Assembly: GCA_002163155.1 (NCBI GenBank)
Contig: MAAO01000004.1
Span: 248,001 to 312,000 of the forward strand
Length of the DNA: 64,000 nt
Origin: Halobacteriovorax marinus
GTDB lineage: Bacteria > Bdellovibrionota > Bacteriovoracia > Bacteriovoracales > Bacteriovoracaceae
Direction of reading: 5' to 3'
Both the position numbers and the translations under genes were made by a program. Positions 8,592 to 46,354 of this stretch are shown piece after piece. A model generated the notes under the pieces. The model saw only the letters and a program-made list of their open reading frames with translations, made no database searches and had not been told where the DNA came from. The stretch's first letter is position 1; every line of letters begins with the position of its first letter.

Positions 8592-9762
8592 CTATCACCT
8601 CTTTTAAGTTGTTTAAGTTTTTCTTCCAAGTATATTTAATCTTAGCCAGCTCTCTCGCTTCGCCACCAATTAATTCCCAAGAATTTCTTTCAGCGATTAG
8701 TTTATTTATTGAATCAATTTGTCCTTTTACCGAATCTTCAATACAAGCATGAACACCATTCTCAATATCAATCCCCTCTGCACCAACAGAAGTTGTAACG
8801 AGAGGAATACCTGTATAGAGAGAGTTGATTGTTTTAACTTTCATACCGCTTCCAAAACGAAGTGGAGCAATTAAAACTTTAGAGTTCATGAGCGCTTCTT
8901 CTAAACTCTCTACATATCCTAAAATTTCTATATTATTAAACCTATTGCAAAATTCATTAAAGTCGCTACTTGCTCCTTTACCAATAATATTTAACTTTGC
9001 GCTAGGGTTTTGAAAGAGAACACCTTCCCATACATTTTCTATGAACCAACGTAGTCCATCTTCATTTGCTTTCCAGTCAAGAGAACCTATATAAGTTAAG
9101 TTCGCATTTTCTAATTCAAAGCCTGGATGATAGAACTGGAGAAGTTTGTCATCACCTAAGTGAAAAGTTTCATGAAATTTTGCTTCTGGTGATAACTTCT
9201 CTAACTCAACAATATCATTTGGAGAAGCTAGTACCATTGTAGCTTCATCACAGATCAATTTTTCGTATTTGCGAATACGACTAGATTCAAGCTTGAGAGC
9301 AACTTTTAAAAATATATTTTGTTGAAGTTCTGCGTAACGACTCCACATGACATACTCTGCATTGTGCTGGTGAAGAAGAACTCTTCCTTTGTAATCCTCT
9401 GGGATGTATTGAAACATCAAAAAATGATCAACAAAAACAACGTCGTAGTCATAAATAATTTTCGAGATTTCTTGTTCAAATGAAGCTGAGAAGTTTCGAT
9501 AAACACTTAATGGTTTTTGAGAGAAGTAAGAGAGTAAATAGTTTTTTAAACTTCGAGGTTTATCAACTATTTCACTATAAATTTTCTTAACATTAACTTC
9601 ATTTAAAAACTTAGTAATATGAAGAGACTGATCTTCTTTGATCAAACATCCAAGACTTAAATCATAATGTTCAGATAGGTACTGAATCATTTTAAATGAC
9701 TTTATCTTCCCACCACTATTGGCAGGAAAAGGTAACTGGGGTGTTAAATATAATAAATTCAA
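8530..9762 (-). CDS. Family 4-like glycosyltransferase
   Basis: This glycosyltransferase of the GT-B fold is about 410 residues long. The N-terminal NLLYLTPQLPFPANSGGK is typical of GT4 enzymes. The C-terminal half has NLTYIGSLDWKANEDGLRW, the donor-site region LIAPLRFGSGMKVKTINSL and TTSVGAEGIDIENG. I chose TTG at 9762, which has GGGAG six bases upstream, over a TTG nine codons earlier that lacks an SD. It overlaps the WecG-like gene by 62 bases and is separated from the upstream glycosyltransferase by about 135 bases, so a second promoter may lie there. Confidence 0.88.
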   Translation of the reverse strand: MNLLYLTPQLPFPANSGGKIKSFKMIQYLSEHYDLSLGCLIKEDQSLHITKFLNEVNVKKIYSEIVDKPRSLKNYLLSYFSQKPLSVYRNFSASFEQEISKIIYDYDVVFVDHFLMFQYIPEDYKGRVLLHQHNAEYVMWSRYAELQQNIFLKVALKLESSRIRKYEKLICDEATMVLASPNDIVELEKLSPEAKFHETFHLGDDKLLQFYHPGFELENANLTYIGSLDWKANEDGLRWFIENVWEGVLFQNPSAKLNIIGKGASSDFNEFCNRFNNIEILGYVESLEEALMNSKVLIAPLRFGSGMKVKTINSLYTGIPLVTTSVGAEGIDIENGVHACIEDSVKGQIDSINKLIAERNSWELIGGEARELAKIKYTWKKNLNNLKEVIDGGSQICEHQIQGVREKYAA

Positions 9763-26004: not shown

Positions 26005-26643
26005 ATGTTTAAGAAAAAGTATATATTCGAAACACAGAGAACAAGGTTTTTCCGCTATTTTCAAAATTGCGCTTTTATCTTTGTTGTTTCGATAATACTT
26101 TATGCCATTATTTCCTTAATTTTTATTCTTGCCGCAAGAAACTTAAATCAAGAAACTAGTCAAAAATTCTACAATCTCTCGCCAGACTTAATTGTTGTAT
26201 TCACAGGCGACTCAGGAAGAATCCCCCTCGCACTAAAGCTTGCTAAGAAGTACAAACAATCAAATGTACTTATTACTGGGGTTTACTCTAAGAACTCTGT
26301 AGACTCTCTCCTGAAGCCTTTTAAGCTTGATGGAACCCTTGACCCTAACCTATTAACGATTGATTATCTTGCTCGAAATACTGTCGAAAATGTAATCTCA
26401 ACACTTCGTCACCTTAGGGAGAAAAAGGGTAATAAGAAAATCATAGTCATCTCGCATGACTACCATGTTATGAGGATAAAACTTATCTTCAGTAAGCTTC
26501 TGGAAAAGTCTGATGATTATGAGATTAACTTCTATTCAGTCAAAACAGACTTTACGACAGCTAGGAATATTAAGATTATTGCTAAAGAGTTGTACAAGTG
26601 GATTAGAACTTATGGTTTTCTACTTCTATGGTCGCCTGAGTAA
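26005..26643 (+). CDS. DUF218/YdcF-SanA-like membrane protein
   Basis: This is a 212-residue protein with one N-terminal transmembrane helix (FIFVVSIILYAIISLIFILA). A DUF218 domain follows: LIVVFTGDSGRIPLALKLA, VLITGVYSKNSV, ARNTVENVIST and IIVISHDYHVMRIKL. SanA, the best-known member, affects envelope permeability and vancomycin resistance in E. coli; the biochemical role is unclear. It begins one base after ridA and is the third gene of that operon. Confidence 0.85.
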   Translation: MFKKKYIFETQRTRFFRYFQNCAFIFVVSIILYAIISLIFILAARNLNQETSQKFYNLSPDLIVVFTGDSGRIPLALKLAKKYKQSNVLITGVYSKNSVDSLLKPFKLDGTLDPNLLTIDYLARNTVENVISTLRHLREKKGNKKIIVISHDYHVMRIKLIFSKLLEKSDDYEINFYSVKTDFTTARNIKIIAKELYKWIRTYGFLLLWSPE

Positions 26644-29319
26644 TTATGCATCAAGACTAGGTCTCTTAAACCTTTTCTTTTGAGCAACTTTCTTCTTATC
26701 GATAATTTCTGAAAGATCATTTTTTTTACTTTGAAGCCTCTTATTAACTAGACTCACTTCACCTTCAAGCTGATCATTAAAGTTCGTCATATCAATTTGA
26801 CTCTTACTCTCTAAATTCAAAAGACATTCAACTTCTTTCACATGCTCGACTAGTTTGATTTTCTTTGCACGAAGTTCATTTGATCTATTCATAATGAGTT
26901 CAGAGTTTGCAGCTTCTCTCTTGAGTTGCTTTTTCTTCTTAATGAGCATTTGATTAAGTCTAGAGACTTCTTTTTCTAATTTATCAATCTCTGTTGCACT
27001 AATTGAATTATCATTGCCTCTAGTGGCTTCATTAATTTCTACTGCATTAAGCTTAGAAGATAATTCTCTTATTCTCTTATTTAAAACGACTTGTTTTTCA
27101 GTAAAGACTTTTGTCTCATTCTTTTTCTTTTCACTCTCTAATCGAACCTCGACTAGATTAGTTTCAAATTCGGAACACTTTACTTCCAACTTTTTCAATT
27201 GTTCATCTTCACTAAAATATTTTTTAGAAACCTCTTCAAGTAGATCTTGTTCAGATAAGATCTCTTTAGAAGTATTACTCAACTTCTCTAAGTAGAACCT
27301 CTTCTTCTTCTCTATAGAACTAATGGCCTCATTTACTCTACGTTGCTTCAAAGATAACTTCTCTATGAACAATCTTTTAGTTTTCAATTCTTTAGAAGAA
27401 AGTAAAACTTCATTATTTAATGACTTTAAATGCTCTGAGTCTTTCTTTACTTTAGTAAGAATGGATTGATGTAACTTAACTGTCTTTTGAATATGCTCTA
27501 CTTTGATTCTTTTTAAATTAATCTGCCCTTCTAACTCTTTCTTAGTGTCACTATAATCTACATATGCTTGGGTCAATTTCTTAGTGACTTGAGCTTCTTT
27601 TACACTTTGCTCTTCTAGAGAGATGGTCCTTCTATCTATTTCCAATTGTATTTCGTGTTGAATATCTTGTAGAGTTAAGATCTTTTTTTCAATCTCACCT
27701 AGGCTCAATACGTTAGAGTGAACTTCTTTATCTTTTAGAGACAATTCAGTTCTTAATTCATTATTTCTTCTCTCTGTCTGGTCTTTCGTACTTCTCGAGA
27801 TTTTTAACACTTCTTCTTGAGATTGTATTTCCTGTTCGCGGTCTTTGATTAATTGATCAATCTCGGCCTTCTTTTCGATAATAGTACCAAGTTTAGTAAC
27901 TTCTAGTTGGTAGGATTCAATCACTTTTTCTTTTTTGGAATCAAGCTCGCTCAAAGAATCAATCTTCTCCTGATTTTTCCTTGAAATTTTATCTGTATTT
28001 AATTTTAGCTTTTCAAGACGTTCAGACTCACACTTTAATAGTTTTCTATTTGATAAAATCTCTAGATCAAGCGATTCACGCTCAACAGAAAGCTTATGAT
28101 TTTTAGATTCTGTATGTTTAAGCTCATCTTTAATACATTTATTTTTCAGCTGAACTTTACTTTTATTATCTTCAAGCTTCTGAATTGATTCCTTTAAATG
28201 ATTTCGACTCTCCAAAAGAAATTCTTTCCTCTCACTTAAAGAGATTGCAGTTTTATTGCTACTTTCAAATTCAATAGAAAGGTCATTTCTTTGAGATCTT
28301 AAATTTTCTAGAGACTCTTTAATAGCTATCTGATCAAGTTCTTGCCTACTGAGTTCTTTTTCTGATCTAGAAACATCTTCCCTAAGTCTATCAAGATTAA
28401 CTTCGAGAGAATCTCTTTCTTCTTTAACTAGTTTTATATCTGAATGAAATTCTGAGATATTTTCTCTTAGTTTATCTAAATCTGAATTTAGATAACTTTT
28501 ATTTTCTAAGAGTTTACCTTTTTGAGAAAGGTATTTGTTGTACTTTTCTTTTAACCTTGAAATCTCGTGATTCCTTGATTCAATTTCGTCTCTATTTTTT
28601 TTCACTTCAGATGTTGCCTCTGAAATACTATCTTTCAAATGGAGATTCTCATTATCAAGTTGCTTTACATCACTTCTTAGCTCATCTCTTTCTGACTCAC
28701 TCGATTTTGTTAACTCTTTTAAATTTGAAAGCTGCATTTGTCTTTCAGAGAATTTTCTATCTTTAATTCTGACTATTTCTTTTTGTTTTCGAACACTCTT
28801 GTCAGCTCTTTCTCTCTCTTTGGAAAGATCTTCAATTTCAATTTCAATTTTATCAATAAATGTAGAGAGCTCTTTTGTTTTACTTTTATCTTCTTCAATA
28901 CTTCGCCTCTTTTGAAATATTGATTCGTTTAGTATTTTTCTCTTAGAGAGGAAATCCCTTTTCTTAAAGTCTAGAGATTTACAAGTTAAACCTAGTTTCT
29001 CATTTTCACTTTTAACTTCTTGAAACGTGCTATCAATTTCAATATATTTTTCAAAGATAGACTCAACTTCTAATTCTCTTGCTACATTTATAGATTTTGC
29101 TTCTTTATTTCTAAGGACGAGAGAGCGACTCTCTTCTTTTATATTTTCTATATTTTCTAATAAACTCTTTGCTGTCTCTTCAAGCTCCCCTCTTTGGGAG
29201 TATCTATTATCTAAATCCAGTGCAAAGCCGTTCTTCTCACTGAGATATTCCTCTGTGAGCATCTCACATACACCCCTTAACAGACGGATCTTAAATTTTG
29301 TTTGCTTCTTTATCTTCAT
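26644..29319 (-). CDS. Large coiled-coil protein (891 aa), function unknown
   Basis: Almost the whole 891-residue protein is charged, heptad-like helix rich in Glu, Lys, Ser and Leu. I find a single proline, near residue 887 in the C-terminal tail KKRFKRPSLDA, and no Walker motifs. It therefore is not a complete SMC/RecN-type ATPase. A continuous rod of this length would exceed 100 nm. The N-terminus is basic (MKIKKQTKFKIRLLRG) and no signal peptide or membrane segment is seen. The start is uncertain: an ATG at codon 20 has its own SD-like GGGGTG. It may be structural, akin to bacterial filament-forming coiled-coil proteins. Confidence 0.85.
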   Translation of the reverse strand: MKIKKQTKFKIRLLRGVCEMLTEEYLSEKNGFALDLDNRYSQRGELEETAKSLLENIENIKEESRSLVLRNKEAKSINVARELEVESIFEKYIEIDSTFQEVKSENEKLGLTCKSLDFKKRDFLSKRKILNESIFQKRRSIEEDKSKTKELSTFIDKIEIEIEDLSKERERADKSVRKQKEIVRIKDRKFSERQMQLSNLKELTKSSESERDELRSDVKQLDNENLHLKDSISEATSEVKKNRDEIESRNHEISRLKEKYNKYLSQKGKLLENKSYLNSDLDKLRENISEFHSDIKLVKEERDSLEVNLDRLREDVSRSEKELSRQELDQIAIKESLENLRSQRNDLSIEFESSNKTAISLSERKEFLLESRNHLKESIQKLEDNKSKVQLKNKCIKDELKHTESKNHKLSVERESLDLEILSNRKLLKCESERLEKLKLNTDKISRKNQEKIDSLSELDSKKEKVIESYQLEVTKLGTIIEKKAEIDQLIKDREQEIQSQEEVLKISRSTKDQTERRNNELRTELSLKDKEVHSNVLSLGEIEKKILTLQDIQHEIQLEIDRRTISLEEQSVKEAQVTKKLTQAYVDYSDTKKELEGQINLKRIKVEHIQKTVKLHQSILTKVKKDSEHLKSLNNEVLLSSKELKTKRLFIEKLSLKQRRVNEAISSIEKKKRFYLEKLSNTSKEILSEQDLLEEVSKKYFSEDEQLKKLEVKCSEFETNLVEVRLESEKKKNETKVFTEKQVVLNKRIRELSSKLNAVEINEATRGNDNSISATEIDKLEKEVSRLNQMLIKKKKQLKREAANSELIMNRSNELRAKKIKLVEHVKEVECLLNLESKSQIDMTNFNDQLEGEVSLVNKRLQSKKNDLSEIIDKKKVAQKKRFKRPSLDA

Positions 29320-29444
29320 ACCTATAATTACCTATTCTGATCATCACAAGTATGACACACAACAACAATCAGTTGGAGTAGGCAGATAGTACATGTTCAT
29401 GCGCCTTTAGGAGCAAATAACTAAAGATGGATGATAAAAGGGAC

Positions 29445-30050
29445 TTAAACTGTTGGAATTGAAGGGATATGACAATCGTCTTCACGAGAGAGAATTTGAT
29501 CATCAACCAGCTTTAACAACCTCGTGATTTTCTTTTCTCTTTCCTGAATTAACTGATCTAATTGGTCCAGTTCTTTACGTTCACATCGAATAGTTTCACC
29601 ATTCTTTATTAGCGTAAGTTTTAAAGAATTAATTTTTTGATCAATATTATTTAGATTTCCTACTTTTACTTTTCTAGCAGCTTGAAGGTTTATTAAATTA
29701 CTTTCGCCTTCAAGTTGTTTCTTCGTTAAGAAATGTAATACCTTAGAGGATTTCTTTGTTTGATAATTTATTAATTGAATTAAATTATCTTGGTTTTTGA
29801 TGTTTTGATTAGTCGTAGCAATTGCGACTTGGGCCCTTAAGAAATTTTCCTTATGCTTTTCAAGCTCTAGGGCCATTTCTTCTAGAATATTTTCTTCAAG
29901 AGAAATTTGTTCAAGGGGTGCTTTTTGTCGATATGTATCAACAAGGGTTTGCTCTTCAATTTTAGTTTTTAAATCACTAAAATTGAGAGTTTTTTCTTTT
30001 TTAATTTTTTTTAATGAACGACTTGAATGGCTATCTTGGTTACTTTCCAT
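29445..30050 (-). CDS. Small coiled-coil protein, function unknown
   Basis: This 201-residue hydrophilic protein has a basic N-terminal 30 residues (SSRSLKKIKKEKTLNFSDLK) and a long predicted coiled coil at about residues 45-190. It ends in a short tail, HIPSIPTV. It lies 54 bases after spoT and 125 bases before the 891-residue coiled-coil gene on the same strand. No good SD precedes the ATG. Composition and position suggest the two coiled-coil proteins may work together, but no family is recognised. Confidence 0.75.
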   Translation of the reverse strand: MESNQDSHSSRSLKKIKKEKTLNFSDLKTKIEEQTLVDTYRQKAPLEQISLEENILEEMALELEKHKENFLRAQVAIATTNQNIKNQDNLIQLINYQTKKSSKVLHFLTKKQLEGESNLINLQAARKVKVGNLNNIDQKINSLKLTLIKNGETIRCERKELDQLDQLIQEREKKITRLLKLVDDQILSREDDCHIPSIPTV

Positions 30051-35565: not shown

Positions 35566-35772
35566 AATTATAACCAGATTTTTTATTTTCGTGGCCCAGT
35601 ATTGAGCGTACATACCGCATATCGGGCAGCTCAAAGCGAAAACGAAGATATTAATAATAATTTGAGGCTATGGGACATTTTTTCCAGAGAAGAGTCTTTT
35701 AGTCGGTTATAATTATAGAGTAAAAGCCTAAGAATTACTTAAAAGTTGTCGATAAGTCTCACGGAGGATCAA

Positions 35773-36651
35773 TTGAAGATTTGGCTTAAGATCGAACAAA
35801 TTTTAAATAACTTACTGGAGACTATCTTTGGAATGTTCTCTAATTTCATTACGGGAATTACTCCTGGAAAAATTAAAAATACTCTCAGTAAGGGTAAATC
35901 AAAAATTGCCAAGACAAAGCTAGATACTAAAAAGATCTTTAACGAAAAAGGATTGAAGGCGCTATCTTCTAGTCTAGAACTTAAGAATAAAACCTTACAA
36001 AAAGCAAATGAGCTGCAACATAAAAGTGTTGAACTTGTTAGTAAGGCCAAAGAAGTAGATTACAAGAGAGTTGATTATAAGAAGTTATTCCTAGCGGGAC
36101 TCTTTATATTTGCTCCATTTTTCGGTAAGATTAAAGGCTGGTTTATCGCTCTTAGTCCTAAAATGCTTATTGGTTCTACCATAGCTGCAACAGTCGTCTC
36201 ACTTTCATCAATTAGTATTTATACCCAAAGTAAAAAAATATCCGACGAGGCTACAGCTCAAGCAAGAGATCCCGCCTCAGAAGTTGAAAATGCCGAAGAA
36301 GCCAGTAAGAGAAAATCTTATTACAAACTTCAAGAGAAGAGATTTACAATCACTCATGTGACAATGCCTGTCTATATTGAATCAGTTAACACTTACAAAT
36401 CTCTAAGCATTGATTTCACTTTTATAAGTTCAAATAGATATATAAAACATTACTTTGATAGAAATAGACACCTTATAAAGAATCGATTGAACTCAACGAT
36501 TCAACCCGTTATTCCAGCATTCCCTTTAAAAGAAGAAGGGAAGGCCATCATTAAAGATAAAATTCAAAAAGAACTCAACCTACTCATTAAAGAGCTGAAG
36601 ATAAAAGGTGAAATTAAAGAGGTCTATATTAAATCAATTCTAGCAGGATAA
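35773..36651 (+). CDS. FliL-like membrane protein
   Basis: This is a 292-residue protein. An N-terminal helical region of about 110 residues rich in Lys precedes two hydrophobic stretches (LFLAGLFIFAPFFGKI and MLIGSTIAATVVSLSSISIY). A C-terminal domain of about 115 residues then resembles the FliL/periplasmic fold, with SSNRYIKHYFDRNRHLIKNR followed by EEGKAIIKDKIQKELNLLIK. FliL proteins associate with flagellar stators, yet no flagellar gene is near. Start is TTG 35773 behind a perfect GGAGG; the TTG nine codons earlier lacks an SD. Confidence 0.72.
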   Translation: MKIWLKIEQILNNLLETIFGMFSNFITGITPGKIKNTLSKGKSKIAKTKLDTKKIFNEKGLKALSSSLELKNKTLQKANELQHKSVELVSKAKEVDYKRVDYKKLFLAGLFIFAPFFGKIKGWFIALSPKMLIGSTIAATVVSLSSISIYTQSKKISDEATAQARDPASEVENAEEASKRKSYYKLQEKRFTITHVTMPVYIESVNTYKSLSIDFTFISSNRYIKHYFDRNRHLIKNRLNSTIQPVIPAFPLKEEGKAIIKDKIQKELNLLIKELKIKGEIKEVYIKSILAG

Positions 36652-44401: not shown

Positions 44402-46354
44402 CTAATATTCAAGTTTTATACCAGTACTGAAGATGGCTCCATCTATTTGCCCAAATTTTCTCGCATCGACAAAGTTCAAGACATCAGGATCCTTTGCTTT
44501 CTGCCCGAGCAGATTTGCAATTTTTCCAAAAATTGAGAAATTACTCTTGGTGTAGGCATATTGAATATCTAAGAGTTCCTGAGAATAAACTTGTGCCCTC
44601 TTACTGATATATCTAAAACTTCCTCCAAGTGAGTGCTTTTCAAAAAATCGATAAGTTAATCCAGTGTTAAAAGTAAAGCGAGGGACATAGAAAGCTGATG
44701 CGTCTTTATCCATTGCTTTATGACCTTGTCGGTGAAAAGACAGATTAGAGAGGAGAAAGAGCTTGTCATACTTTCTCTGGTATTCAACTTCAAACCCCTG
44801 TCTTTCGAATTGACCAGAATTAAAATAAGTTGCTTCATTTGCCCCTGTCACTCTAGTAATCACATTTTCTGTTTTAAGGTAATAGAGATCAAACATGAAG
44901 TGATTTCTTTCATCTGTATATGTATAAGCTAAATCTAGCATTCCATTTTTTTCAGGGAGAAGCCCCTTTTTACCAATAACAATTCCTGGGACATTAATAT
45001 CTGTCTGAATAGGACTAGGTGAATTATATCCCACAGAATATAAAAGTTTTAATGACTGATTTTTATTAATTTTATAGACGACACCTGCACGAGGAGTTTT
45101 CTCTGCTTTTGCTAAACTGTAATCAACATATCGAAGTCCAAGTAAGAATTTCCAATATTTAGATAGAGAAAAGTCTATCTGCCCGTAGTGAGACAACTCA
45201 TAACTTTGACCATCTCCAATAATCGAAAGCAAGAGAGTATCAGAAGTCTGATCATACTTTCCGTAATCTCCCCAACTTCGTCTCTCATATTCTGATCCCA
45301 CTAAAATTGATAAGGTATCAATAGGTGTAATATGTGCGCGGGCTCCGCCTCTTAAGCGGTAGTTATCCTTTCCCTCATTACTCATTTTGTAAATAACACC
45401 AGAAGTTCCACCAAGATCATTTGCCACGGGTAATTCATGAAAGTAATTATTATAATCACCGAAGACATTAAATTTTACTTTTTTAAAGAAGTCTAACTTT
45501 TGATCGACGTGTATCAAATAACCTTTTTTTATCCAACTCGCCTTACTGATGACTGTATCTGCAGAAGCAAAGCCGCTCGTATCAGATTCAAAAACATTGA
45601 TAATGACCTTAGTATCTTTATATTTTATCTTGGCATGAACAGATTTAAAATTTTCGGACTTCCTATAGAACCCGTTCGTGGGTAGGTTTTGATTAGAAAA
45701 AGTAGCGGGAGCAGTCTTCAACCCTTCAACAGATTGATTTACACCATCATCAGTTTGAATCTCGGAGGAAATTGAAAGACTTCCATCTTTAAATTTCTTA
45801 TTGTAGTAAACGCTAGCTTTATCGCGGGCATACTCTCCCTTAGAAGCGTACAAAGTTCCTATATTATCTGTCCTAGTCACAACATTTATCACTCCAGCAG
45901 AAGCATTCGTACCATGTAGAACAGAACCTGGACCTCTAATTACTTCAATATAGTCAATAGCTTCAAAGGGAACCCCATTTAGAGGAATATCTGTATGAGT
46001 AGGCAACCAGTACGGCACGCCATCTATTAGAAATAAAACTTTCTGATTAAAGCCTTCAACTGAACCTCGAATCATTATTGGGGATGTCCCAATTTGTCCC
46101 TCAAGAGCCGTAACCCCTGGAACTAAATTAAGCATGTCCTTAATACTTCTCGCTCCAAGCTTTTCTAAATCAAACCTTGAGTAGCGAGTGACTATGGCCG
46201 GAGTTTCACTAATGCTCTCCTTATTTATCGACGCTACATCAACCGTAACAGAGAGTAGGTCTTCCATGCTGAAATCCATCAGTGTTGAAAAATCCTGAGC
46301 AATAGCAGATGTGGACAAAAGAGATAAATATAAAAAGTATTTGAAATATGTCAT
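44402..46354 (-). CDS. TonB-dependent outer-membrane receptor
   Basis: This 650-residue beta-barrel receptor has a signal peptide ending ATSAIA-like (STSAIAQ). A plug domain of about residues 40-165 contains SETPAIVTRYSRFDLEKLGA, MLNLVPGV, the IRGSVEG element, VLFLIDGVPYW and the family motif YIEVIRGPGSVLHGTNASAG. Many aromatic-ending strands follow, with a final FSTGIKLEY. It imports a scarce ligand such as a siderophore, cobalamin or glycan; the ligand is unknown. No TonB/ExbBD or inner-membrane transporter is adjacent. Confidence 0.93.
   Translation of the reverse strand: MTYFKYFLYLSLLSTSAIAQDFSTLMDFSMEDLLSVTVDVASINKESISETPAIVTRYSRFDLEKLGARSIKDMLNLVPGVTALEGQIGTSPIMIRGSVEGFNQKVLFLIDGVPYWLPTHTDIPLNGVPFEAIDYIEVIRGPGSVLHGTNASAGVINVVTRTDNIGTLYASKGEYARDKASVYYNKKFKDGSLSISSEIQTDDGVNQSVEGLKTAPATFSNQNLPTNGFYRKSENFKSVHAKIKYKDTKVIINVFESDTSGFASADTVISKASWIKKGYLIHVDQKLDFFKKVKFNVFGDYNNYFHELPVANDLGGTSGVIYKMSNEGKDNYRLRGGARAHITPIDTLSILVGSEYERRSWGDYGKYDQTSDTLLLSIIGDGQSYELSHYGQIDFSLSKYWKFLLGLRYVDYSLAKAEKTPRAGVVYKINKNQSLKLLYSVGYNSPSPIQTDINVPGIVIGKKGLLPEKNGMLDLAYTYTDERNHFMFDLYYLKTENVITRVTGANEATYFNSGQFERQGFEVEYQRKYDKLFLLSNLSFHRQGHKAMDKDASAFYVPRFTFNTGLTYRFFEKHSLGGSFRYISKRAQVYSQELLDIQYAYTKSNFSIFGKIANLLGQKAKDPDVLNFVDARKFGQIDGAIFSTGIKLEY

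Follow-up and report, generated by a model that had tools for sequence, protein, structure and literature searches.

A long, rapidly diverging coiled-coil protein in one heptad register downstream of spoT in Halobacteriovorax: a possible spacer rod

Downstream of spoT in Halobacteriovorax marinus lies a gene for an 891-residue protein, here called protein A, that forms a heptad pattern of continuous register. Its sequence drifts fast while its length stays near-constant within each length class, its core is better conserved than its surface, and it is confined to one genus, in which it always takes the same place after spoT. Our preferred reading, in which confidence and doubt are evenly balanced, is that A is a cytoplasmic spacer rod with its work done at the ends. 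Eukaryotes have well-known long spacer rods that set distances; a counterpart in the bacterial cytoplasm, with no enzyme joined to it, would be unusual if true. Furthermore, the locus provides a clean natural experiment, comprising five species, conserved flanks, near-constant length and almost free sequence.

The locus

The window, by which we mean the whole stretch of 64,000 nucleotides that was analysed, comes from an assembly of 4.55 Mb in 16 contigs. The features that concern us are as follows.

26644-29319, minus strand: gene of protein A, an open reading frame of 891 aa for an uninterrupted heptad coiled-coil rod protein
29251-29319, minus strand: N-terminal end of A (about residues 1-23), basic and amphipathic, outside the heptad register
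26695-29250, minus strand: rod of A (residues 24-875), one heptad register over 852 residues at eps 0.03
26647-26694, minus strand: C-terminal tail of A, basic by net charge, with the sole proline (887)
29445-30050, minus strand: gene of protein B, an open reading frame of 201 aa
30105-32294, minus strand: spoT, bifunctional RelA/SpoT with Pfam HD, RelA_SpoT, TGS and ACT domains, the fixed upstream neighbour
26005-26643, plus strand: DUF218 gene (Pfam), the convergent neighbour of A

The genes thus run spoT, B, A along the minus strand, and the stop of A abuts the end of the convergent DUF218 gene. Scans for promoters and terminators in the spoT-B and B-A gaps yielded no informative site on the coding strand. 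The linkage of A to spoT looks positional: the junction between spoT and DUF218, where two convergent genes meet, holds different inserts in other genera and seems to tolerate insertions. Examples are loci L050, L051, L052 and L044: in three of these genera a pair of same-strand genes (about 256-283 aa) sits at the junction, and in another a 485-aa gene on the opposite strand. Within the genus of A, for which we compared the window genome with four others (G001 to G004), DUF218 is not next to A in G003 (locus L036, past position 9201); a different cluster stands there, which we take by eye to resemble flagellar stator genes (motA/motB-like). Elsewhere in the window, a 301-aa protein (35746-36651, plus strand) gives a sub-threshold match to FliL, at 18.1 against 24.6 bits.

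An almost uninterrupted heptad rod

The earlier note had described A as an almost uninterrupted heptad helix of 891 residues with one proline at its extreme C-terminus and no ATPase motifs, and each of these points was borne out. The coordinates and P887 were confirmed. At the 3.1% proline average of genes in the window, a protein of 891 residues should contain about 28, and we calculate a Poisson probability of about 2e-11 for at most one. There are 10 glycines, and E and K make up about 15% each. Hydrophobicity recurs every 3.50 residues in all five homologues, with a summed power of 170.5 against a maximum of 17.8 in 100 shuffles. Sliding windows follow one register along A, which is ambiguous near residues 450-475 and gives way to another preferred register at about 561-610.

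A register HMM with hand-chosen scores placed, at its standard setting, no shift in the window protein or in G002, one each in G001 and G003, and two in G004. At the laxest setting (eps 0.03) the longest single-register runs were 852 residues in the window protein, 736 in G001, 702 in G002, 673 in G003 and 746 in G004. By comparison, runs in the same five genomes reached at most 266 residues in SMC arms, where shifts number about 0.4-0.8 per 100 residues, and at most 90 in RecN coils; among 15 other loci the longest were 188-447 in 14 and 638 in one. A shift towards the C-terminus (residues 712-764) was found in G001, G003 and G004 and, at laxer settings only, in G002; the window protein has none there. 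At 0.1485 nm per residue, the rod of A comes to about 126 nm. Internal duplication was rejected as the source of this length, there being no direct DNA repeats of at least 20 bases and only two minor short tandem runs.

The N-terminal stretch is set off from the rod by a register shift at residue 24 (laxest setting), and its hydrophobic moment reaches the 97th percentile or higher in three of the five homologues; just past it, in the coil, L46, T49 and I57 are invariant in the homologue alignment. At the other end, the last 20 residues carry a net charge of +6 in three homologues and of +2 and +3 in the remaining two. By reading of the sequence, A has neither a signal peptide nor a membrane helix, and we presume it to be cytoplasmic. 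Position a of the core favours L/I/V plus N and K/R, and position d favours L. The combination is typical of parallel dimers. In-register g-e' salt pairs were not preferred (z -1.0 to 1.3), and electrostatics favoured neither a parallel nor an antiparallel in-register arrangement, so the putative dimer is without electrostatic support.

Pfam recognised no family in A, which agrees with the lack of an ATPase, and none in B; with NCBIfam added, nothing rose above cut-off for A and nothing was found for B. Neither did Pfam recognise a domain at the ends of A, which consist of the short basic amphipathic head and the basic tail. A PDB profile search returned three weak matches, all coils. The AlphaFold2 model of A is about 89% helix at low confidence (mean pLDDT 64.1, pTM 0.26), and its kinks are taken for artefacts of modelling a monomer. 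The literature search, whose scope left out most subscription papers, turned up no paper on protein A.

Divergence with length and register maintained

Pairwise identity within the genus is 24-32% for A, as against 87-96% for spoT, 77-91% for gmk and 73-85% for DUF218. Mean identity per 50 residues over pairs stays at 14-31% throughout A; on this measure SMC arms keep 65-95% and the RecN coil 50-60%. Of 52 reciprocal best pairs between G001 and G004 over 80 kb, with a median identity of 81%, A is the lowest at 32.0%; seven of these pairs fall below 60%, and A alone among the seven has equal length. Between the window genome and G004 it ranks second lowest of 29 pairs (25.9%), above a TonB-dependent receptor-like gene, and against G001 it was not recovered among 26 pairs. 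That receptor-like gene (44402-46354, minus strand, Pfam) shares 24% identity with its reciprocal best match in both G001 and G004, a divergence similar to that of A, and may be non-orthologous or fast evolving.

The lengths of A are not one fixed value, falling at 763-764, 873 and 891 aa. Within classes, however, length is kept during divergence. The proteins of G001 and G004, both of 873 aa and 32% identical, are collinear end to end with 99% register agreement, the alignment holding a single offset throughout bar a few blocks in which a different offset scores better or almost as well. Against these two, the window protein aligns at offset -5 around residues 46-150, returns to that offset at 631-720 or beyond, and stands at -11 near the C-terminus. 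Most blocks between the two regions of offset -5 are too diverged to align, and the equal offset of these regions implies that any insertions and deletions cancel out across some 600-700 residues, at about 25% identity. G002 (763 aa) and G003 (764 aa) are 25% identical with offset 0 at head and tail; their middle is not placeable, with many compensating gaps. Shuffles that preserve the heptads support homology within classes (z 42, 14, 10 and 8) and, between classes, for the window protein with G002 (z 7.1) and three further pairs (3.7-4.3), while G002-G004 and G003-G004 are marginal (1.6 and 2.0).

Conservation also follows the heptad. Between G001 and G004 it is 0.42 at position a and 0.44 at d, 0.36 at both e and g, and 0.26, 0.22 and 0.20 at f, c and b; it is thus the helix interface that is constrained rather than the outer surface, a contrast that four other tested pairs show less strongly.

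A spacer rod or a packed filament

In the spacer reading, two chains of A would zip together along about 850 residues, giving a continuous left-handed coiled coil of roughly 100-130 nm, and two structures would be kept apart or together at a set distance by the basic amphipathic N-terminus and the short basic C-terminal tail. These structures might be the membrane and the nucleoid, or a pair of envelope or polar complexes. The shorter helix protein B, whose gene lies between spoT and A, may serve as an optional partner. Selection would keep length, heptad register and core chemistry and hardly act on the surface, so that the sequence could drift almost freely.

Spacer and filament coils have been compared before, presumably by White and Erickson. 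According to an excerpt of that comparison (PMC2650401), filament-packing coils hardly change, diverging 1-3% among mammals, whereas inert spacer coils change freely and diverge by about 20%. The fast divergence of A, its better-kept interface and its kept length thus favour a spacer or tether over a laterally packed filament. As described in PMC5082667, giantin and other golgins, Ndc80 and ROCK2 likewise conserve length while their sequences diverge, in rods of about 100 nm or more; they are, however, eukaryotic and carry binding or catalytic end domains, whereas A is bacterial and has none recognised. This lack of a recognisable end domain counts against the spacer rod, as do the length difference between classes, the missing g-e' preference, the low confidence of the AlphaFold model, the compensating gaps in the middle of G002-G003 and the weaker core contrast in the four other pairs. 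Additionally, when the two classes are compared over their last 50 residues, the homology signal does not clearly exceed background.

The chief alternative, which we consider unlikely though serious, is that A is a cytoskeletal protein resembling those of intermediate filaments, of the type of crescentin or the Bdellovibrio Ccrp, which would form polymers beneath the membrane to stiffen the predator cell and have B as its assembly partner. Like crescentin (Caulobacter CreS) and the Ccrps of Bdellovibrio and Helicobacter, A is rich in coiled coil, has short non-coil ends and contains neither an NTPase nor a globular domain; it is about twice as long as crescentin. A Ccrp is indeed present in Bdellovibrio, and the crescentin rod profile Rod_CreS weakly matches one of the five homologues. 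That match nevertheless scores 25.9 bits, far under the cut-off of 100, and the window protein has none. The rod of A is continuous in every homologue at the laxest setting, whereas the rods of intermediate filaments are described as discontinuous segments in an excerpt of PMC7002697. In the five homologues no charge periodicity exceeded the shuffle range, and a charge repeat as the sign of a staggered filament was therefore rejected; surface positions are the least conserved; and A diverges far more than SMC or RecN coils, the opposite of filament-packing coils. On these three grounds the scaffold filament suggested by the earlier note, if formed by side-by-side packing, is disfavoured. For Bdellovibrio, an excerpt of PMC8938487 reports an unchanged vibrioid shape upon Ccrp deletion, and the title of a work cited in PMC6985089 states that Ccrp 'prevents cellular indentation'; Halobacteriovorax cells are comma-shaped, as given in part of PMC4511183.

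Length classes and exchange

A tree of six genes, (G002,(window,(G001,(G003,G004)))), has 100/100 support on both inner branches and conflicts with the tree of A, ((G002,G003),(window,(G001,G004))). For A, the grouping of G001, G003 and G004 is rejected (AU p 7e-4, subject to a long-branch warning). spoT, SMC and other genes place G003 with G004; A places it with G002. Indeed, head and tail of the G003 protein resemble those of G002 (z 18.9 and 6.7) and not those of G004 (z -0.5 and -0.9), and the genes after A in G003 are also unlike those of the other genomes. The simplest reading is that the A cassette was exchanged between species; the alternative is that old paralogues were sorted differently.

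Exchange of this kind invites another explanation, which we judge quite improbable: that interaction with phage, prey or kin puts the B-A cassette under antagonistic selection, as an exchangeable locus that diversifies rapidly, its change being driven rather than tolerated. The lowest identity of 52 syntenic pairs, the conflict of trees and the likeness of the G003 head to G002 only would all fit, as would the finding that B differs in the same genomes as A. Against it, change is spread over A with no single region standing out, the conservation of core over surface is also predicted by relaxed drift, long branches make the tree of A uncertain, and no signal peptide is seen.

Returning to the spacer rod, it is tempting to speculate that A is a bacterial cytoplasmic molecular ruler, a tentative and rather doubtful extension. 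Here a stutter-free coil of about 100-120 heptads, with length and register as its main inherited property, would come as two interchangeable length classes (about 105-113 and 126-130 nm). These would swap between sister species of a probably predatory genus, and exchange of the cassette may in this way set a cell dimension.

Two further origins can be set aside. Descent from SMC/Rad50 by loss of the ATPase head and hinge is very improbable: long heptad coils of similar composition are common to both, and SMC_prok_B matches all five homologues (best 8.7e-25), but the window protein scores 58 bits against a cut-off of 567 with its best stretch in coil only, Pfam SMC_N is not found in A, which has no nucleotide-binding head or hinge, and SMC itself is a separate gene, 81-94% identical in the same genomes, with arms far better conserved and of shorter register runs. 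That the frame is a chance or decaying one without function, as very low conservation might suggest, has next to no probability and, provided that the other four genomes are sound, is refuted by frames open over 763-891 codons in all five genomes, with constant register and equal lengths within classes.

Distribution and protein B

Searching by position, a coil of 763-891 aa with one or two prolines was found after spoT in five of five genomes of the genus. By contrast with this count, a protein search with A matched 2 of 39 genomes, that is, one of four congeners, and a search with B matched its own genome only (1 of 39). Such rod proteins are therefore probably under-counted, being missed by sequence search even inside a genus.

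The stretch after spoT was also read in 56 family genomes outside the genus (16 from a first survey and 40 from a later one); it held no charged, proline-poor open reading frame of at least 250 aa within 6 kb, and no match to A or B. Eight of these had less than 2.5 kb of sequence past spoT; DUF218 directly followed spoT in five of the eight, and L129, L150 and L159, where it did not adjoin, are uninformative on the absence of A. A DUF218 match starts no more than 65 bases from the end of spoT in 26 of the 56, the nearest genera included. The simplest reading is that A was gained in the ancestor of the genus. The earlier suggestion of a lineage-specific gene linked to spoT thus holds for A, restricted as it is to this genus among the family genomes read and linked to spoT in all five; the suggestion that A and B form a stable pair does not, as B is long in two of the five genomes, of 84-86 aa in two and absent from one.

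In the window, B is modelled by AlphaFold2 as a single long helix (24-190, mean pLDDT 85.7) with flexible ends. The gene at its place encodes 84-86 aa ending in DNVLKFQ at L034:5874-6128 and L037:6365-6625, and a 200-aa coil ending in NVLSFLPPVPGL at L036:6181-6783. Judging by these sequences, genes at this place may have related ends while the coil comes and goes.

A profile of A matched 28 of the 129 genomes in our family set (120 of which have spoT at E < 1e-100), 23 of them outside the genus. From our reading of 15 loci among these 23, wider homologues were rejected, the matches being taken as due to composition rather than orthology; one locus starts in a way we assume to be that of an SMC, by its motif, and ten encode a secreted-looking protein with an (L/M/Y)PDE motif near the N-terminus. 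These ten (L066-L072, L076, L079 and L080, from other genera) make up a separate family of long, secreted-looking coiled coils, with open reading frames of up to about 1290 aa and the motif (L/M/Y)PDE(I/V)(N/D) soon after an apparent signal peptide.
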